Source: an uncultured Synergistales bacterium
Lineage (GTDB): Bacteria > Synergistota > Synergistia > Synergistales > Aminobacteriaceae
Length of the DNA stretch: 46,676 bases
Assembly (NCBI GenBank): GCA_905233565.1
Contig: CAJOCL010000017.1
Location: 1-46,676 of the forward strand
Direction: 5' to 3'
The stretch's first letter is position 1; every line of letters begins with the position of its first letter. A model generated the notes under the pieces. That model made no database searches. It worked only from the letters and a program-made list of their open reading frames with translations, and had not been told where the DNA came from. Both the position numbers and the translations under genes were made by a program. Below are positions 10,001 to 36,140 of this stretch, in pieces.

Positions 10001-11567
10001 TTATCTTGACGAACTTATTAAAGGCTATGAGGCTTTTGACCGTCAGACAAAGACATGGAACGGGAAAAATAAAGGGCTTGCCGTCATTGCGGGGCGTATT
10101 GATGCTCCGGAGGAACAGAGACAGTATCCTTTTGTCCTGGATTTCATGAAAAACGGACATCAGATTCTTTACGGTGCGCCGTCAACGGGAAAGACGAGCT
10201 TTTTGCAGACTGTAATACTTTCGGCGGCACTTTCATACACTCCTGAACAGGTTAATTTTATTATTCTTGATTACGGCAGTTTTATATTAAAAGTTTTTGA
10301 AACTCTTCCTCACTGCATAATTGCAGCAGATCCAACTGATGAAGAAAAAGTCAGGAAAGCCAATGAATTTTTGCGCAATGAAATTGCATCGAGAAGAAAA
10401 CTTTTCAGCGCGGAGGGAGTGGCCAATCTTGAGGCATACCGCGAGGCTGTCGGGAAGCCCGTACCTGCAATAATAGTAGTTGTTGACAACATAGCATCAC
10501 TGAGCAATCAAAATTCTGATTTAATGGACGTTTTGAATCAGACGGCGCGTGACGGCGGAGGCTTGGGGATTTATTTAATGATCAGTTCCGGCAACACGGG
10601 AGGCTTCATGTATAAAATATCACAGTACGTAAAGAGCAATCACACTCTTCAAATGACAGAAAAAACTGATTACAGGCCGCTTGTCGGAGGTGACGGGAGA
10701 ATGTATCCCGGCAATTATCCAGGACGCGGGCTGACGAAGGGCGCGCTGGAATATCAGACTGCTTTGTGTGTTGACGGGACAAGCGAAAACGACAGGAACA
10801 AAAAACTCAGGGTTCTTTGTTCTGAAATGGCTGAAACATGGACAGGGAAGAGCGCATCGCTTGAGGCTGCAGAGAGTGAGACATCAGCACCGATTCAGGC
10901 AGGGGAATTAACTTCAAGCGAAAACTCAGTCCAGATCGGCATGAAGAAGGGAACGCGCGAACCCGTAGAGTTTATTTTCAGCGATATGAACGGCTGTGTT
11001 ATTTCAGGCTCATACGGAGCAGGGAAGAGCAGTATTCTCGGAATGATAGCCAAAGCACTTGATAAGGATTCTGATACTGCGCTGTATATATACGAAGAAA
11101 AAACGTTCATTGAAAATTTATGCCCGAACGCTAAGACCGCTCATAAGCCAGAAGATGCCGATTCTTTCATTGCTGAACTTGCACAGGAATATGAAAAGCG
11201 TGACGAGGACAGCAAGGGGCGTATAGTGCTGTGTATTGATGATTTCTATAATTTCTATCAGGACATTACGCAGGAAAGTGCGGACATACTCGAGGCGATA
11301 GCGCGCGGAGGTTCTGAAAGAGGAATGTACATATATGTATCTGTCAGCTTAAAAGGTCTCGGACAATTAAGCAGCTGGGGCGTACCTCTTATGAAAGAGC
11401 TTCTTAACGGCGGAAACGCCGTAGCAGCCGGCGGAAGTCTTAGGGAGTATCTGGCTTTCAAAAATCTTCACCGTGAAGACGGTATTTTGTTCGGCAATCA
11501 TGAGGGCTGTTTAATACATGACGGAAAAGTTACCGTGCTGAGATTCGGGAAACCTGAAGGAGCGTAA
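7062..11567 (+). CDS. essC: EssC/YukB-like type VII secretion ATPase with FHA domains and three FtsK/SpoIIIE modules
   Basis: 1501 residues, the size of Firmicutes EssC. Two FHA-like domains come first; the second (about 95-180) has the phospho-threonine-binding signature GRSYNSND, SSRHAV and SRNGTFVNG. Two membrane segments follow (about 248-295, SWLTALMPPAMMVGVMGF). Three ATPase modules have Walker A motifs GTSGSGKS (from residue 688), GAPSTGKT (from 1038) and SYGAGKS (from about 1317). Their Walker B strands are LIIVIDEFAEL, AIIVVVDNIASL and RIVLCIDDFYNF. Only the first has a canonical Asp-Glu pair, so module 1 is probably the active motor. The family drives export of WXG100 proteins across the inner membrane, and their genes follow directly. 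Intact FHA residues plus the downstream kinase suggest phospho-control. Confidence 0.93.
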   Translation: MDYLIAVYTGRKIYTLTVKPGITATIGSAQNDNVFIDRPELNASHLVLACDAGGVRILSKQPFKFGDDEVSNRVLSAGDVIHVTAKITLAVFEAKCRLHSAVLIESFDEIKIGRSYNSNDICLKDPNVSSRHAVLRKINGLWTVSDLQSRNGTFVNGDLAQVDSEIPAENVNIFICGYIFYVQNNMLRFTNIPGDVEFSPEIDDVLVPMPARQKAYPFFQRSPRIRNRAERADFDISSPPNAGTKPSISWLTALMPPAMMVGVMGFVAVMTGNYNMLMYSLPMSLMSLVVTVINNRNNMKKWIKNNGLAIEKYSEYLAETDREITDAEGAFMSSLSSANPGVLECLSIAQNVSRRLWERTPKDSDFLNVRLGTGSIDSNVKIKLPSSQMSVEDNPFIKQAQEIRDRHRFLTGIPVCHSLTEYPVTGLAGRRDSVMRTAWRIIMDIAAHHSYDDVKIMCVYPEEERSQWEWLRWLPHIWDTKHKKRFLAFTKDAARPMLREAAETMKVRRRDIKPGNRDVQPAMPFYVLILADRTLTESSGESLLPESASLGFAAVYAYGDIGALPGECQSVITCDVPAKIQNTQPDRGSVTTSFVPDKISVNILDDFARSLAPVHLMSAGGGSKMPSSITFLQGFNARTVQDLDVIGRWSSSHSEKSLAAPIGIKENGDIFEFDVFEKAMGPHGIAAGTSGSGKSEMLTTWLLSLALNFSPDDVNLALIEFKGNDLSNILHDLPHIAGIVSNLNDPSTIIRGLKSLKGEKDRRMRLFEQSDFLSSKSIFAYQKYQKSHPEAGLEPLPYLIIVIDEFAELVTQYPEFNDEIVSIARVGRSVGMYMTLTMQSPQGVVKGQVSSNTKFRVCLRTATASESKEIIGTDDAFNISAPGRAYIKVGNNEVYEQVQTFYAKAPYRPNSGQRSAVDEIKLVELNGTRKKPENYTKTVRAARDEQSEGNVIVKNIIEEAEAHHVKHAKPVWTDPLPEMLYLDELIKGYEAFDRQTKTWNGKNKGLAVIAGRIDAPEEQRQYPFVLDFMKNGHQILYGAPSTGKTSFLQTVILSAALSYTPEQVNFIILDYGSFILKVFETLPHCIIAADPTDEEKVRKANEFLRNEIASRRKLFSAEGVANLEAYREAVGKPVPAIIVVVDNIASLSNQNSDLMDVLNQTARDGGGLGIYLMISSGNTGGFMYKISQYVKSNHTLQMTEKTDYRPLVGGDGRMYPGNYPGRGLTKGALEYQTALCVDGTSENDRNKKLRVLCSEMAETWTGKSASLEAAESETSAPIQAGELTSSENSVQIGMKKGTREPVEFIFSDMNGCVISGSYGAGKSSILGMIAKALDKDSDTALYIYEEKTFIENLCPNAKTAHKPEDADSFIAELAQEYEKRDEDSKGRIVLCIDDFYNFYQDITQESADILEAIARGGSERGMYIYVSVSLKGLGQLSSWGVPLMKELLNGGNAVAAGGSLREYLAFKNLHREDGILFGNHEGCLIHDGKVTVLRFGKPEGA

Positions 11568-11571
11568 AATT

Positions 11572-11835
11572 ATGAATGAACCTGAGACATTTATAGCAAC
11601 CGTTACGAATGATGAGCGCAGTTTTGAGCAGGATATGGAACTGCCTTCCGCTATGCCTGTATCTGAATTAAGCTCGCAGATCCTCATGATTCTCAAGGAC
11701 ATTCACGAGGATATTTTTTCGCAGTGGGTTTCATGCCGCCTTGAATGCAATAACAGGCTTCTGAAAAAGGATGATACATTGATAAAAGCAGGAGTTTTTG
11801 ACGGCAGCAGGATAATCGTACGTGAGGAGCGGTGA
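11572..11835 (+). CDS. esaB: YukD/EsaB-like ubiquitin-fold protein of the type VII system
   Basis: 87 residues, starting 4 nt after the EssC-like stop. The C-terminal half (LLKKDDTLIKAGVFDGSRIIVREE) has the YukD/EsaB pattern: a ubiquitin-like strand, a short helix and a final strand, without the diglycine tail of ubiquitin. The N-terminal strand pair (FIATVTNDERSFEQDMELP) fits the same fold. In Firmicutes type VIIb systems this small cytosolic protein is a conserved component encoded beside EssC. The translationally tight spacing supports an operon. Confidence 0.85.
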   Translation: MNEPETFIATVTNDERSFEQDMELPSAMPVSELSSQILMILKDIHEDIFSQWVSCRLECNNRLLKKDDTLIKAGVFDGSRIIVREER

Positions 11836-29559: not shown

Positions 29560-29767
29560 GAAAAGCTCAAAATCAATAAAGATTTGCTCGATGCCATGCT
29601 CGTAGGGGTAAAAACTCAGGAGGATTTATGAGGTAAGGAGCATCATCACTAAGATTAACAAGGCTCTGCTGGAACGTATCCTCAATGCTGAGATGGATTT
29701 TCACTTAGACAACTCTCACGAAATACGCGCTGTTGGCAACACTAGGAACGGCCACAGCAGGAAATAG
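29539..29767 (+). mobile_element. IS256-family transposase N-terminal fragment, frameshifted
   Basis: One phase encodes INKDLLDAMLVGVKTQEDL and then stops. The next phase encodes IITKINKALLERILNAEMDF, then HLDNSHE and GNTRNGHSRK before a stop at 29765-29767. The ALLERxLxAEM and NxRNGxSRK steps are characteristic of the N-terminus of mutator-type (IS256) transposases. The catalytic domain is absent. Confidence 0.75.
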
Positions 29768-29830
29768 GTTGTAAAGTTTTCTGTATATAGACACAGTTTT
29801 TATCAGCAATTGTAAGCTGTTTATTCGATC

Positions 29831-29869: not shown

Positions 29870-31279
29870 TTAGCTATTTGCCCATTTTTGTAAAATCTGC
29901 ATTTCATTAGGATTATTTCTTTGAATCAGCATGAAAAGATAATCGAGAATGCCCTTTGCTATCACACACCTGTAAGAATATTCATCACGCTGAATCAAAT
30001 CACACTCCAAGCCGTAATTAACAACAGGGCATACAGAGCAGTAAGGCATGTACACACAATCACTGCACATAGGGAGAGCCTCAGCGCATGAAGCTGTACA
30101 TACCACATGTGCTACAGGAGACATCATCAATTCACGATAAGTGTTATCTACAGAACCCAGACGGAAAATATCATCTCCCATATTCGCCAGCATTCGTCCT
30201 TCATCACAGGTGTATATATTCCCATCGTAGTTGACCGCGATTTGTCCTGTTGCCGCTCCGCAAGGCGAACGAAATTCCGTATGTCCGACTGCATCACCGT
30301 TAAATATGCGCTTTAGGTATATGGACGCTGTAGCCTCTGAAACGTAGACTCCATTCCTGCATTTTTCTATCATGCAGTCAATTAGGCGGCAATAAAATTT
30401 CACATACTCTTTAGGAGAATAGCCGATAACATTCCAGTTCTCACGTGCGCGGCCTAAAGGTGTCAAAGGACGTACATAAAGATGATTTATTCCGTTCGAT
30501 ATATATTCGTCAATTATTTCTTCGGGATAGTTCAATGATTTTCTTGTCGTTGTCTGAATAGCACTGATTACAGGATTTTTACCGCATTCAGCGCAAAGTT
30601 TCCTGTAGAGTTCGACTCCTTTATGCCATGAATCGTAGCTTGATTTATTTATGGCTAACGGACGGTTGTATTCATGAACAGTCCGAGGACCGTCAAGCGA
30701 TGTCGAAATATTCACGTCCTGCCCGATAAGCCATCGCAGTAATTCAGCATCAATACTTGTCATGTTGCTTACGAGCGCGAAATTAACATTTTTCCCATGT
30801 TCAGCAAAAACTTTCCGGGCATAAGGAACAGTAAAGCGCAAAACATCAGGATTCATTGTAGGTTCTCCGCCCTGAAATTCTATCGTCATGTGTGATACTG
30901 GGGACTGAACTGCCAAATTTACAGCTTTTCGGCATGTATCAGCGGACATGTTAGAGCTATGCGCTCCACCAGCCTGACAGTAAACACAACGCTGATTGCA
31001 TGAATCTGTCAGCACAAGTATCATAAGGCGTGTAGCAGACAAAAGACAACGTTTCATTCTGGCCATTTCATATTGAAACTCTGATATATACTCGTCCTTG
31101 TCCTGATACAGAAATCCGCGTTTTTTAAGAACGTTAAATATATCACTTCTGGGAGAAAGCCTGCCTTCAGCAAAATCATAAAATTCATCTTCATTCAGAA
31201 AGTAATATTTGCCTATGTCATTTGTCAGTAGAAATTTCCCGTTGAACTCTATCCAGTTATAATAAGCTGATAAATACAT
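29870..31279 (-). CDS. hxsB: Radical SAM/SPASM maturase HxsB
   Basis: 469 residues. An N-terminal part (about 1-80) resembles a peptide-recognition region. The radical SAM core follows with CNQRCVYC (Cys94, Cys98, Cys101) and FQGGEPTM. The C-terminal SPASM region carries many Cys: PCGAATGQ, YTCDEGRM, CTASC, CSDCVYMPYCSVCP and CDLIQRDEYSYRC, enough for two auxiliary Fe-S clusters. In the His-Xaa-Ser (Hxs) system, known from TIGRFAMs gene-neighbourhood models, two such enzymes accompany a His-Ser repeat protein; the modification is not established. It is the last gene of the operon, 12 bp after hxsC. Confidence 0.88.
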   Translation of the reverse strand: MYLSAYYNWIEFNGKFLLTNDIGKYYFLNEDEFYDFAEGRLSPRSDIFNVLKKRGFLYQDKDEYISEFQYEMARMKRCLLSATRLMILVLTDSCNQRCVYCQAGGAHSSNMSADTCRKAVNLAVQSPVSHMTIEFQGGEPTMNPDVLRFTVPYARKVFAEHGKNVNFALVSNMTSIDAELLRWLIGQDVNISTSLDGPRTVHEYNRPLAINKSSYDSWHKGVELYRKLCAECGKNPVISAIQTTTRKSLNYPEEIIDEYISNGINHLYVRPLTPLGRARENWNVIGYSPKEYVKFYCRLIDCMIEKCRNGVYVSEATASIYLKRIFNGDAVGHTEFRSPCGAATGQIAVNYDGNIYTCDEGRMLANMGDDIFRLGSVDNTYRELMMSPVAHVVCTASCAEALPMCSDCVYMPYCSVCPVVNYGLECDLIQRDEYSYRCVIAKGILDYLFMLIQRNNPNEMQILQKWANS

Positions 31280-31291
31280 TGCGCCTCCAAA

Positions 31292-32155
31292 TCAATACGG
31301 CCTAACAGCAATGTCAGGCATAATTTTTGTGGTGCGAAAAAATCCTCCGCATTCGTCCTTTTTCCTGCAACTTTCACATTCTGGAAGGTACTCAATTTTT
31401 GATGGTGTAATGCTCCTCCTATACAAAGGCTGAAGATTTTTGTCAACAATGCAGAGCGGGTAATTATACAGCTCAGTTTCAACACCTTTCATTAGGAGGA
31501 TATATACTGCCTCGCGTATGAAAGACCATAATTCACCGTAGTCGCACCAGACTTTATCGCGGTTAATCATAGCATTGCCCATCATTTCAAGCCCCATCAG
31601 GCAAACATGTCGGCAGTAAGGGTATCTTCCAGCAATCATCTTAGCGAGACTCGGCAAATTTTCGCAGTTAAGTTTTGACGTTACTATGCGAAGCTCGATA
31701 TGTTCTCCGGCTCTGTAAAGGTTGTCCAGTCCGCGCAGTGTTTCGTCAAAGCTTCCCTCAGACTGCGAAATATAATCATGAAGTACTGAATTATCAGCAT
31801 GAAGAGGAATACCCAGTAAGGTTTTATACGGTCTAAGCCTGCGGAAATCGTCAAGGAAATCTTTATAGGCGAAAGTCCGCCCATTTGTGAGAATATGAAG
31901 CAGTGCCGAATGAAAATGATTCCTGCAATATTTCACCAGCCTCAAAAAATTATCACGCAGGATTGTAGGTTCGCCGCCTGTGATACATACATATTCTGCA
32001 TAAGGACTTATTGAATCAACCATTTGTTTTAGCCTTTCGAATGACTCCGATTTTGCGTTAAGCCTGAAATGCTCAGTATAAGGACACATTATGCAATTTG
32101 AGTTGCAAAGCCCTGTAGTAAATATTGTATTTTCTGAAATGTCCGATTCTGCCAT
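31292..32155 (-). CDS. hxsC: Radical SAM maturase HxsC
   Basis: 287 residues, preceded by GGGGAGGA. The radical SAM core has CNSNCIMC (Cys17, Cys21, Cys24) very near the N-terminus and ITGGEPTI. A C-terminal Cys cluster (CESCRKKDEC) could bind another Fe-S cluster. It pairs with HxsB in a locus with two His-Ser-rich peptides. I rely on context and remembered family descriptions for the name HxsC rather than HxsB; the shorter size and absence of a full SPASM domain support it. Confidence 0.85.
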   Translation of the reverse strand: MAESDISENTIFTTGLCNSNCIMCPYTEHFRLNAKSESFERLKQMVDSISPYAEYVCITGGEPTILRDNFLRLVKYCRNHFHSALLHILTNGRTFAYKDFLDDFRRLRPYKTLLGIPLHADNSVLHDYISQSEGSFDETLRGLDNLYRAGEHIELRIVTSKLNCENLPSLAKMIAGRYPYCRHVCLMGLEMMGNAMINRDKVWCDYGELWSFIREAVYILLMKGVETELYNYPLCIVDKNLQPLYRRSITPSKIEYLPECESCRKKDECGGFFRTTKIMPDIAVRPY

Positions 32156-32176: not shown

Positions 32177-33193
32177 CTAGCTTCTCAGAAACAAAAAGCG
32201 CAACACCTGTATCACTGTCGCACCCGCTAAGAACGGCGCAAAAGGCATCATCTCAACTATAATCACTTTGCTGTGAGCGTTCCTGCACCAAGTCTTCACC
32301 GCTTCAGCCTGACGCTGTGTAAGACGCGACCGCCGATTTTCCGTTGTAGTCTGCGGGAGTTCTGGATCATTGCACTTACGCATAGCCCACAATGATGTGA
32401 ATGACAGAATCATTCCAGGACGAACTTCGTCAGCTGAAATTTCACGGTATATATTAGCGTGGACTCGGTTGCTAATGATTTCTATTGCTGAGGCGATAAC
32501 TAGACTCAAAGCGAGACTCATAAATACATTCAGCCATGACCCAGACAATATACTCTGGAAGAGAATATATATCAAACCAATGAAGCCGATTATCTTTCTT
32601 GCAGTATCGACTTTTTTCTGAAGAATGAATATCAATGCGGCAGAAGACATTATGCACAGAACCTGATTAGCATAAAAAAATCTTGGTGTGAGTGTGTCTA
32701 GTAGAATATTCAAGAATGATATTATCCCGGCATTAGCGAGAATCGAAAGATAATGCTTTAAGCTGAAATTAGGACTGAAATTCATTTTTTTGGCTGTCCT
32801 GCGTGAAAGTGCCATTGCGAGAAGGAATATATACCCAAGCGCGAAGGCATACACAACAAAATCGAGAGCAGGAAAAATATTGCCTTCCCTGACTGTATAA
32901 GCGCACATAGGAAAAATCAGCGATATTATGATATAGAGTTTGCAGTCACCCGGTGCCCAAATATCTGCTAGATAAAATATAACGGCTATTACTACTGAGA
33001 AAATTACATTCAGCGCAAGGGGAAATATATTAACTGATGATGAATGAAAAAAGAATGTCTCACTTACAGCAAGAACAATCCACAGTGTCAGAGCGATAAT
33101 TAAATGGTTATTTCTGACACGACCTGAGACAGTATCCGTAAATGCACCAACTCCGGCAACAAGTAGCACTAATGCCAAATACGCGAAAGTCAT
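32177..33193 (-). CDS. A24-type prepilin-peptidase-like membrane protein in the Hxs locus
   Basis: 338 residues, about eight membrane helices. The two Asp of A24 aspartic prepilin peptidases are present: Asp20 in AFTDTVSGRVRNNH (compare the D..x..IPN loop) and Asp83 in WAPGDCKLY (the GxGDxKL motif). A C-terminal soluble segment (PGMILSFTSLW, then RLTQRQAEAVKTW) ends in MMPFAPFLAGA, typical of the last helix of this family. No pilin, secretion ATPase or Tad genes are nearby. The gene lies between hxsC and hxsD, and the His-Ser peptides carry a Lys-Gly followed by a hydrophobic segment. They are the natural substrate candidates. Confidence 0.8.
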   Translation of the reverse strand: MTFAYLALVLLVAGVGAFTDTVSGRVRNNHLIIALTLWIVLAVSETFFFHSSSVNIFPLALNVIFSVVIAVIFYLADIWAPGDCKLYIIISLIFPMCAYTVREGNIFPALDFVVYAFALGYIFLLAMALSRRTAKKMNFSPNFSLKHYLSILANAGIISFLNILLDTLTPRFFYANQVLCIMSSAALIFILQKKVDTARKIIGFIGLIYILFQSILSGSWLNVFMSLALSLVIASAIEIISNRVHANIYREISADEVRPGMILSFTSLWAMRKCNDPELPQTTTENRRSRLTQRQAEAVKTWCRNAHSKVIIVEMMPFAPFLAGATVIQVLRFLFLRS

Positions 33194-33196
33194 GCT

Positions 33197-33598
33197 TCAG
33201 TCTTCAGACCAGCTTGCGAAAATATGACTCTGGTCATCACGCCAGCTTGATTGTGAGTCTGTATTATCAGGTTCAGGATTTTCACGTTCAGGTTCAATGC
33301 ATGTAGCATACAGCGAACGCGCAACAAGCAATTCACGTATTCCTCTTGTGCGTCGGGCAGTATCAAGCCTTATCATCTGGAAGGAAAGCTCCTTCATGAT
33401 TTCTGCTATTTCATGCTCAATTGGCTCTATCTTAGCGCTTGTCTCAAAGAACACGTGAATAAATGCCCCGTCAGTTTCATAGGATATAACATACTTATCA
33501 TGAAAACGGTACAGCGCTTTCATAACAGCTTCGCGGGCATATAAATTTCTGTCAATCCTTATAGAAAAACCGTTTTCTGTAAGTTCGTAAGCTCTCAA
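33197..33598 (-). CDS. hxsD: HxsD-like small protein
   Basis: 133 residues from a TTG start (33598); no upstream in-frame start precedes a stop, and the ribosome site is poor. The core (about 8-95) is alpha/beta: FSIRIDRNLYAREAVMKALY, FHDKYVISYETDGAFIHVFF, IAEIMKELSFQMIRLDTAR and GIRELLVARSLYA. The tail is acidic and Ser-rich. HxsD is the small conserved partner in the Hxs neighbourhood, about 100 residues long, with a similar strand/helix order and a late leucine-rich motif. The match is by position and general pattern. A peptide-presenting role for the radical SAM enzymes is a guess. Confidence 0.7.
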   Translation of the reverse strand: MRAYELTENGFSIRIDRNLYAREAVMKALYRFHDKYVISYETDGAFIHVFFETSAKIEPIEHEIAEIMKELSFQMIRLDTARRTRGIRELLVARSLYATCIEPERENPEPDNTDSQSSWRDDQSHIFASWSED

Positions 33599-33622
33599 TT
33601 TCTTCGTGTCTATGAGCTGAAT

Positions 33623-33901
33623 TTACCAGTGCATAAGGCTGTTAGCGTGGCTGGCATGACTGGCGTGACTCGCATGGCTTGAGTGGCTGGAATGGCTTGA
33701 ATGATTAGGATACCCCCAATTACTGTGGCTTGTATGCCACGCGGAAGCATCTTGAACTCCAAGAACACACGACAGAACAACCATCAGCGAACCGATGGCG
33801 AGAAGCTGACCTTTTGGAATACTAGCCTCTTCGTTGAGCAAGAAATCCGATATTGAATGACTGCTCACGGACTCTACTTCATCAAACAGCTTTTTTGCCA
33901 T
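33623..33901 (-). CDS. hxsA: His-Xaa-Ser repeat peptide 1 (HxsA-type precursor)
   Basis: 92 residues, preceded by AAGGAG. Residues 1-31 form a charged leader (MAKKLFDEVES, ending EEASIPKG). A hydrophobic stretch follows (QLLAIGSLMVVLSCVLG), then a core with HSSHSSHSSHASHASHASHA and a short LMHW end. The leader and hydrophobic part are nearly identical to those of the next peptide, while the cores differ. This is a ribosomally made precursor by composition and by its radical SAM neighbours. Gly31 before the hydrophobic segment looks like a prepilin-type cleavage site. The core would then be exposed outside the membrane. Confidence 0.85.
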   Translation of the reverse strand: MAKKLFDEVESVSSHSISDFLLNEEASIPKGQLLAIGSLMVVLSCVLGVQDASAWHTSHSNWGYPNHSSHSSHSSHASHASHASHANSLMHW

Positions 33902-33962
33902 GAATGCATCATCTCCTTATAAGGTATAAATCTTTATCTCTATATTTTAATTATTATAGCAT

Positions 33963-34400
33963 TTATTCAGGCGGAATTGTACCGGGTAATGCCTGCGGTA
34001 TCTTTGGAGTATCTGGCAACACGGGTGTTATTGCAGGCGGTTTAACGGAACTAGGCGCAACATTTGAGTGATAGTTATAACTGCTACTGTGATTGGAATG
34101 TCTTCCGCTTGCGTGGCTGCTGTGACCATATCCTCCGCTACTGTGACTGGAATGGCTTGAATGTCCGCTCATATGGTTTGAATGATTGCTACTGGAATGA
34201 CTTGAATGACTCCGATGACTCGAATGACTCCTGTGTCCGGCAAAAGTATCCTGTACACCGAGTATGCATGCAAGCACCACAATTAATGAGCCAATTGTGA
34301 GAATACGCCCCTTTGGTATACTGGCTTCCTCATCAAGCAGAAAATCTAATACTGAATGATGCTCAACAGTTTCAGACTCATTAAATAGTTTCTTCGCCAT
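33963..34400 (-). CDS. hxsA: His-Xaa-Ser repeat peptide 2 (HxsA-type precursor) with proline-rich tail
   Basis: 145 residues with AAGGAGG before the ATG. The leader (MAKKLFNESE, ending EEASIPKG at Gly31) and hydrophobic segment (RILTIGSLIVVLACILG) closely match peptide 1. The core holds HRSHSSHRSHSSHSS, NHSNHMSGHSSHSSHSS and YGHSSHASGRHSNHSS blocks, and a Pro-rich tail (VKPPAITPVLPDTP) follows. Many His residues could bind metal, and the H-x-S units are the likely target of HxsB/HxsC. It starts 12 bp after the MORN protein gene, so it is co-transcribed. Confidence 0.85.
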   Translation of the reverse strand: MAKKLFNESETVEHHSVLDFLLDEEASIPKGRILTIGSLIVVLACILGVQDTFAGHRSHSSHRSHSSHSSSNHSNHMSGHSSHSSHSSGGYGHSSHASGRHSNHSSSYNYHSNVAPSSVKPPAITPVLPDTPKIPQALPGTIPPE

Positions 34401-34412
34401 GAGAATACCTCC

Positions 34413-35138
34413 TTATTTCACAAATCGGTTATTAGACCATCTGCCTGCAATCTTCGTACCATCAAAATAATATGTGCCGTAACCATTTATAATATCATTT
34501 TCCCATTCCCCTGTATATACATCACCGTTAGCAAAATGAGCTGTGCCTTTTCCGGATCGTTTGTTGTTCTTGTATTCACCAGTATAATAACCGCCACCAA
34601 AATAGTTGCTAAAATAGTAATAAGTCCCTTCTGAAAAATTCCCAGACTTATCCAACGTTCCGACATAAAATGCTTTACCCGGCCAGATTATCACGGCATA
34701 GTTCTTTACCTGAGCAATATATGTGTTTCCCTTTCGTGTGAAAGAGCTGTTATTTGTCACCAGAGAAAATTGCGTAATGAGGTCAGCTTCACCAGTAACA
34801 GAGAGATTATTCGCTGACTGAAATTCTCTAACTGCCGAGGCTGTCTTGACACCATATGCGCCGTCAGCTTTCCCAATTGCATACCCGCAACTAAGCAATA
34901 AATTCTGAAGCTCTCGCACACCCTTGCTCTTATTGCCTGACCGATATACTAAGCCCTCCACATTCTGAAGCCCTTTGAGTATTTCATCTGTGTCTGAAGA
35001 TTCTTTGAGCTGTTCTGTAAGCATCTCCTTTATATTATTGACTGGAACGGATGCTCCAGACGAGACTGCTATCAGTATAAAGAATAACAGAAAATTAACT
35101 AGTAAAAACAGCCCGAAAAGATGTATGCTTTTTTTCAT
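34413..35138 (-). CDS. Exported peptidoglycan-binding and MORN-repeat protein, first gene of Hxs operon
   Basis: 241 residues, GGGAGG seven bases before the ATG. A signal peptide or anchor (LFGLFLLVNFLLFFILIAVS) is followed by a PG_binding_1 domain (about 72-120: GVRELQNLLLSCGYAIGKAD, TASAVREFQSANNLSVTGEA). After a beta-rich region come two to three MORN repeats (about 185-238: YYTGEYKNNKRSGKGT, VYTGEWENDIINGYGT). As I recall the family, typical HxsA proteins join a His-Ser cluster to a peptidoglycan-binding domain; here the two halves are on separate genes. Likely periplasmic, perhaps an anchor for the His-Ser peptides. Confidence 0.8.
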   Translation of the reverse strand: MKKSIHLFGLFLLVNFLLFFILIAVSSGASVPVNNIKEMLTEQLKESSDTDEILKGLQNVEGLVYRSGNKSKGVRELQNLLLSCGYAIGKADGAYGVKTASAVREFQSANNLSVTGEADLITQFSLVTNNSSFTRKGNTYIAQVKNYAVIIWPGKAFYVGTLDKSGNFSEGTYYYFSNYFGGGYYTGEYKNNKRSGKGTAHFANGDVYTGEWENDIINGYGTYYFDGTKIAGRWSNNRFVK

Positions 35139-35389: not shown

Positions 35390-36140
35390 ATATATAAAAC
35401 CTTAAAGGGGAAAGAAGGATAAAACATTGACGCATGAGAAAAGACTACATGATATATCGGACAGGATGTGGGCATTGCTTGAGCCTTGTCTTCCGGGCAG
35501 ACCAGGGGCATGTGGATGTGTCGCTCAGGATAACAGACGCTTTATAAATGCTGTCATTTGGATTCTGCGTACTGGTGCTCCCTGGAGAGATTTACCACCG
35601 GAATATGGAGACTGGAAAAATACGCATCGCCGATTTTGTCGTTGGCGTGATAAAGGCATCTGGGCAAAATTATTTAATATGTTTGTTCAAGACCCGGATT
35701 TTGAATGGTTAATGTTTTGAATGCTTAATGATTGATGCCTCATACATTAAACTTCATCCACATACCTCTGATGCACTAAGAGGGAATCAGGACAATGGGA
35801 CGTACAAAAGGGGGCTAAATTCAAAAATCCACCTTTCTCAGATTGACAAGCTCAATATTTACTTGCCAACAGAGCTTACGATACAAATTCCGTGATTAAG
35901 ATTGCCCAAACCAAGAAGATGGAGCCAGTACCCCCCCCCCCAAGAGGAAGCGTAAAGACCAACGAGAATACAATCAAAAAATTTATGAAAATCGCTATCA
36001 AGTAGAGAACACATTCCTAAATTTAAAACGTTGGCGGGGGATTGCTACCAGATATGCAAAAAAACCTCATCATACACAGCCGCGGTATAAATCTGTTGTA
36101 TGTATCTTTGGTTTCGTATCCTTTGACGACACGCCCTAAG
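35390..36140 (+). mobile_element. IS5-family insertion sequence remnant (copy 2, plus strand)
   Basis: The first 97 codons (35427-35720: MWALLEPCLPGRPG, INAVIWILRTGAPWRDLPPE, KGIWAKLFNMF) are the N-terminus of an IS5-type transposase. A 16-bp imperfect duplication (GAATGGTTAATG...GAATGCTTAATG, 35702-35729) shifts the frame. The next phase reads MIDASYIKLHPHTSDALRGN with the first catalytic Asp. A C11-C12 run near 35932-35942 and further lesions follow, and sequence resembling the end of such an element (GTATCCTTTGACGACACGCCC) reaches about 36137. Same family as copy 1, opposite direction. Confidence 0.8.

Follow-up and report, generated by a model that had tools for sequence, protein, structure and literature searches.

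The closest described systems to the locus reported here are the classical Hxs operons (TIGR03976-TIGR03979; NF038309, NF038313), in which HxsB, HxsC and HxsD are likewise encoded in one operon together with His-Xaa-Ser precursors. Classical precursors open with a Sec signal, followed by a spacer and the core, and their loci have no A24 gene, whereas in the present locus the precursors start with the leader, their hydrophobic segment lies directly against the core, and the gene set includes an A24-like member. The precursor subtype has already been named HxsA3 by NCBI, as has a further one, HxsA4. The second point of reference is the prepilin peptidases, which are set apart from signal peptidase I by cutting before the hydrophobic segment (PMC4371748). 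Prepilin-type enzymes need Gly, Ala or Ser at position -1, and for the archaeal enzymes a charged residue at -2 is critical (PMC4371748).

The DNA analyzed, hereafter the window, is a stretch of 46,676 nucleotides from an uncultured Synergistales bacterium of the gut (contig CAJOCL010000017.1). An earlier note on it had proposed a prepilin-type peptidase dedicated to an hxs locus, a combination of which its author knew no description. In agreement with this, we found no description of Hxs together with a prepilin peptidase or A24 in the papers searched; the founding Hxs paper (Haft and Basu) lay outside that search. The separate parts are already known, and it is the A24-like protease in Hxs loci that appears undescribed in this literature.

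The hxs operon and its A24-like protein

The coordinates of the earlier note were confirmed, and the hxs gene set lies entirely on the minus strand:

34413..35138, minus strand: first gene of the operon, membrane-anchored protein of 241 aa combining MORN repeats with a peptidoglycan-binding domain (Pfam PG_binding_1 7e-16, MORN 1e-10)
33963..34400, minus strand: precursor peptide 1, HxsA3 type, long form with a Pro-rich tail, 145 aa (NF038309 78.5 bits, cut-off 65)
34308..34310, minus strand: Gly31 codon of peptide 1, the proposed -1 residue
33623..33901, minus strand: precursor peptide 2, HxsA3 type, short form, 92 aa (NF038309 57.1 bits, under the cut-off of 65)
33197..33598, minus strand: HxsD (TIGR03976 47 bits, just under the cut-off of 50; E 2.4e-12)
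32177..33193, minus strand: A24/FlaK-like membrane aspartic protease homologue, 338 aa (Asp20 codon 33134-33136, Asp83 codon 32945-32947)
31292..32155, minus strand: HxsC radical SAM maturase, short form (TIGR03977 291 bits, cut-off 267.9)
29870..31279, minus strand: HxsB radical SAM/SPASM maturase (TIGR03978 462.6 bits, cut-off 370)

The bit-score cut-offs for HxsA3, HxsB, HxsC and HxsD are the curated NCBIfam values. Because the intergenic gaps measure 3 to 61 bases, the seven genes running from 35138 to 29870 (the PG/MORN protein, two HxsA3-type peptides, HxsD, the A24-like protein, HxsC and HxsB) very likely constitute a single operon. HxsD orthologues were found at every A24 locus. HxsC in the window's genus lacks the N-terminal part of about 85 residues that is found in classical HxsC and in two of the A24-bearing loci described below, L082 and L128. 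A counterpart of the PG/MORN protein occupies the matching place in L082 (32% identity, E 1e-39).

Both His-Ser peptides carry Ile-Pro-Lys-Gly31 ahead of a hydrophobic segment, as the earlier note had described. In peptide 1, the leader (residues 1-31) ends in ...EEASIPKG(31) and passes into hydrophobic RILTIGSLIVVL; the hydrophobic segment spans residues ~33-50 and is followed by TFA(54) and the His-Ser core from Gly55. Peptide 2 has the same ...EEASIPKG(31), then hydrophobic QLLAIGSLMVVL, with ASA(54) ahead of the core.

The operon was present in only 4 of 43 genomes of the genus, and transposase remnants (IS256-like and IS5-like by eye) flank it in the window at 29640-29770 and 35427-36130, which together suggests horizontal gain. 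Transposase remnants also adjoin the L025 locus. In each of the L013 (548-657) and L025 (~11300-11600) loci one precursor type is retained and the other has decayed to a remnant, which suggests that the long and short forms can partly replace each other.

Based on sequence profiles and a structure model, the membrane protein is a divergent prepilin-peptidase relative, as had been proposed. The window protein scores 15.9 bits (E 0.018) with Pfam A24 (PF01478), below the cut-off of 26.5, which two of its orthologues exceed with 27.0 bits in the genome search; in a set that includes relatives from other lineages, Pfam A24 matches 9 of 10 family members, with a best E of 7.3e-9. The two Asp residues named in the earlier note, Asp20 (in FTDTVSGRVRN) and Asp83 (in WAPGDCKLY), are invariant in 11 relatives. 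Only 11 positions are invariant among 11 A24-like sequences, including D20, N28, N62, G82, D83 and K85, and both Asp are still kept in the most distant relatives, at 17-20% identity. The dN/dS of the gene, 0.15-0.22, corresponds to purifying selection. The first Gly of the GxGD / GxHyD motif is missing in all members (APGD, PAGD, SAGD or SPGD), and for this reason we refer to the protein as A24-like rather than as an A24 member. The protein is very divergent, and a long additional stretch separates its catalytic motif from a C-terminal P-F-x-P motif.

A first, shallow alignment of four close sequences gave an uninformative profile comparison with PilD and a structure model with a pLDDT of 48. 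The model from a diverse alignment of 10 sequences reached a mean pLDDT of 72, and its top structural match was FlaK (3s0x_B; Z 11.0, rmsd 3.7, 155/186 residues), with the next row at Z 6.2. These Z scores were obtained by re-aligning the model to the PDB chains ranked highest by Foldseek. Since none of Foldseek's own scores against the PDB was significant for this model, and since helical bundles can score high, the FlaK match is support, not proof. Comparison of the profile of the 10 diverse sequences with the PilD of the genus matched the C-terminal P-x-x-P-F stretch alone, and a sequence-based search for solved structures of the A24-like protein found none.

Distribution of the gene and design of the precursors

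HxsC scored above the cut-off in 6 of 188 Synergistota genomes. Four of these belong to the window's Synergistaceae genus, and all four carry the A24-like gene between hxsD and hxsC; the other two loci are classical and lack the gene. Across the 188 genomes the hxs A24 type was limited to the four with this hxs type. Including three loci from elsewhere (L082, L128 and L125), seven A24-bearing hxs loci were found. L082 lies on an IMG/VR contig, and its A24 and HxsB are 39% and 53% identical to those of the window. L128 (MT837156.1, a human faecal contig) encodes A24, HxsD, a second HxsD-like gene, HxsC, HxsB and, like the window, a MORN protein, together with an HxsA3 peptide scoring 113 bits. 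L125, from a genome of a small separate phylum, encodes HxsB, an HxsA4-type peptide, two HxsC-like proteins and A24. The position between hxsD and hxsC is shared by the window's genus, L082 and L128.

The gene was absent from 21 other hxs loci (on plasmids, IMG/VR contigs and the two Synergistota), as judged by two profiles (hxs A24 type, PilD) over a few kb either side of each locus. In the seven loci with the gene, A24 and HxsB identities fall in step (Spearman 0.97), as expected if the two were co-inherited as one unit. Judged by gene content, the A24-like gene is a constant component of one Hxs variant that recurs in unrelated bacteria, and the proposed dedication of the protease to its hxs locus was borne out in this survey, in which it was tied to the leader-first variant. 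Plasmid searches with the A24-like protein and with the peptide as queries gave no matches, and a search for HxsC in a small clostridial phylum found none.

Several neighboring observations were made along the way. In L082 (8057-15859), a tyrosine integrase and phage lysis and tail genes directly follow hxsB, corresponding to a prophage inserted beside the hxs operon. The 7.6-kb record MT837156.1 is filed as 'Bacteriophage sp.'; it opens with a fabZ-like gene, includes a complete hxs operon and looks like bacterial chromosome, not phage. One genome, at a related locus (L079 2193-9157, G307:C99), encodes HxsD-like, HxsB-like and two HxsC-like proteins with three precursors of 278-315 aa that are rich in His-containing repeats and have EEAKISSKG, EEAKVSTKG and EEAKITSSA before the hydrophobic segment; its A24-like gene lies elsewhere (G307:C147). 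In the small separate phylum, the hxs A24 type also occurs beside radical SAM clusters with large membrane proteins (L114, L122, L123) and beside other genes (L124), and no obvious Hxs peptide was seen near the A24-type gene in these four. Radical SAM genes of the hxs type occur in more than 300 Klebsiella plasmid records, and one such plasmid (L042) has a classical hxsD-B-C-A cassette amid resistance and transposon genes.

The architecture of the precursors follows the presence of the gene. At all seven A24 loci a leader of about 20-30 residues precedes the hydrophobic segment, and the core begins within about ten residues of it. At the loci without A24, a Sec-type signal comes first and is followed by a spacer of 32-54 residues and then the core, and the leader-first design was seen in 0 of 21. 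The association has a Fisher probability of 8e-7 when counted by loci, which are not independent samples, and of about 0.002 when counted by lineage (4 versus 8, a rough count by eye). As prepilin peptidases cut before the hydrophobic segment, this fit between enzyme and leader-first precursors is the strongest argument for the idea of the earlier note.

The cut site and alternative explanations

All five peptides of the genus have Gly31, as does that of L082, and L125 has KKG. Among these 7 peptides all four Gly codons are used at position 31 while the residue stays the same; its retention through four synonymous codons, together with the low dN/dS of the A24-like gene, indicates that the pattern is more than chance. 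The residues at -2/-1 (KG, KG, KG, RG, KG, MG in L082, KKG) fit the prepilin-type rule except for the Met of L082. L128, in which both A24 Asp are intact, has Asn at -1 (..NITRN, then KLLMVGSL). Residue preferences of the wider family were read by probing the NCBIfam HxsA3 and HxsA4 models with point variants. At -1, the HxsA3 model prefers Asn by 2.5 bits over Gly, which does no better than Trp; in the HxsA4 model Gly scores below Ala or Asn, with a strong preference (10 bits) for Lys at the position before. The HxsA3 model also holds Gly37, inside the hydrophobic segment, at 4.7 bits and Ala54 at 3.7 bits. The Gly required for the cut after Gly31 proposed in the earlier note is thus present in the window's genus, L082 and L125, but L128 has Asn and the models do not favor Gly, and a class III cut at this bond is a tentative proposal. 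Conservation of the KG site, which the note had offered as a refutation test, fails in the wider family: it is ruled out by that same Asn and by the HxsA3/HxsA4 preferences.

A feature overlooked in the earlier model lies on the other side of the hydrophobic segment. Just ahead of the core, a small-x-Ala site resembling those of signal peptidase I is present in 8 of 8 peptides of A24 loci (TFA, ASA, AFA, ASA, ASA, ALA, AEA, TEA). From these patterns, either other -1 residues are tolerated by the enzyme family, or its cut lies elsewhere in the segment, or signal peptidase I makes the decisive cut and A24 handles the remainder.

The last of these options can be extended to a full alternative, in which leader and segment form a Sec signal whose N-region is unusually long, the core is freed after Ala54 by signal peptidase I alone, and the A24-like protein acts like a signal-peptide peptidase on the leftover segment (for example near Gly37), clearing it or freeing the leader. 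Presenilin-type enzymes, which belong to the same GxGD class, do cut transmembrane segments. Gly37 and Ala-x-Ala are the more constant features, and a simple Sec/signal peptidase I route would explain them; in the HxsA3 model changes of Ala54 and Gly37 carry a penalty, those of Gly31 do not. Against this stand the retention of Gly31 via all four codons in the window's lineage, the 21 hxs loci with ordinary signal peptides that do without A24, and the top structural match, FlaK, which cuts before the H-domain (PMC4371748). We consider this explanation unlikely, though the likeliest of the alternatives.

A second alternative is that the protein is an active prepilin peptidase that acts elsewhere, on pilins or other proteins, and sits among the hxs genes for regulatory or historical reasons. 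The earlier note had stated that there are no pilus genes, which holds for the contig of the window to the extent of a T2SSF/PilC-type search, which gave no match there, but not for the genome. Elsewhere, the host genome has PilB/PilC/PilT/secretin-type genes, a complete-looking type IV pilus or related machine, as well as a PilD of its own (270 aa) and a pilin with the usual KGFTLMEV sequence. Hence, to judge from its genes, the host makes type IV pili or a similar machine that could supply substrates, and the A24-type relatives that neighbor other radical SAM clusters, where no Hxs peptide is visible, point the same way. However, a PilD-type A24 is already present in 12 of 12 genomes of the genus examined, and the extra A24 occurs with this hxs type only and between hxsD and hxsC in three lineages, which makes this explanation improbable. 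Given a canonical PilD in the genus, the hxs A24 is better seen as an extra, specialised copy, and the absence of pilus genes is no argument.

The earlier note had also allowed for assembly of the His-Ser core, which in the form of a pilus is unlikely because the bacterial pilin-type Glu at +5 is absent. The peptides have no acidic residue there (Ile, Val or Ala-type residues are found thereabouts), a lack shared by many archaeal pilins (PMC4371748). Together with the lack of a pilin domain and of assembly genes in the locus, this led us to reject assembly of the peptides into a pilus. Finally, a non-protease role in the membrane, as a scaffold for the modified peptide or a factor in its export, which would fit the lost first Gly of GxGD, the strong divergence and the long extra region, is highly improbable, as Asp20 and Gly82-Asp83 are among just 11 invariant residues in 11 sequences and are hard to explain without catalysis.

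Proposed pathway and comparison with known systems

Taking the operon, the precursor design and the kinship of the enzyme together, the A24-like protein is likely a dedicated leader protease acting at the membrane edge. The pathway that we favor, by a small degree, is a leader-first Hxs variant with a built-in FlaK/prepilin-peptidase-like protease, comprising modification, insertion, a leader cut and possibly a second cut. The His-Ser-rich peptides are probably chemically modified: from their family membership, HxsD, HxsB and HxsC would recognise the leader (..DFLLDEEASIPKG) in the cytoplasm and introduce the modifications in the His-Ser repeats. The hydrophobic segment would then insert in the membrane so that the leader stays in the cytoplasm and the His-Ser core lies outside, and the A24-like protease would remove the leader at the cytoplasmic edge of the segment. 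In the window's genome this cut would most probably fall at or next to Lys30-Gly31, the exact bond being uncertain. Signal peptidase I may then cut once more, after Ala54, and release the modified core into the cell envelope, where it could be held by the peptidoglycan-binding/MORN protein of the operon; without the Ala54 cut, the core would remain membrane-anchored. Classical HxsA proteins often have their own peptidoglycan-binding domain, so a split into two proteins is plausible.

More broadly, and with about as much doubt as confidence, a GxGD-class FlaK-like peptidase may have been taken over by a ribosomal radical-SAM peptide pathway to serve as its dedicated leader protease. In this reading the precursor was redesigned to place its recognition leader on the cytoplasmic flank of a membrane segment, where it would be cut independently of any pilus or secretion filament. 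If true, a prepilin-type peptidase would be at work outside filament assembly, in the maturation of a peptide natural product. Hxs systems are widespread, including on hundreds of Klebsiella plasmids, and a conserved dedicated protease offers a concrete handle on their product: it predicts where the mature peptide starts and that its final location is the cell membrane or wall. Because lineages differ in having Gly or Asn at -1, the specificity of the protease can be tested directly.

Compared with classical Hxs, the window has a truncated HxsC and encodes as a separate protein the peptidoglycan-binding domain that in classical loci is often part of HxsA itself. Compared with FlaK/PibD/EppA and PilD/TadV (MEROPS A24), the A24-like protein shares two similarly spaced Asp, the GD-x-K motif, the N-terminal helices of the FlaK fold and the C-terminal P-F-x-P motif, and, as in archaeal prepilin peptidases, it has no methylase zinc domain. 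It differs in the missing first Gly of GxGD and the long middle insert, and its gene accompanies peptide maturases, not pilins. Its presumed substrates resemble theirs in the KG before a hydrophobic segment, but the -1 Gly is not universal. The same holds for the comparison with type IV prepilins and class III signals, with which the peptides of the window share a positive residue and Gly just before the hydrophobic segment; unlike type IV prepilins, they have no Glu at +5, no globular pilin domain and no assembly ATPase in the locus, and the wider Hxs peptide family is without the prepilin Gly.
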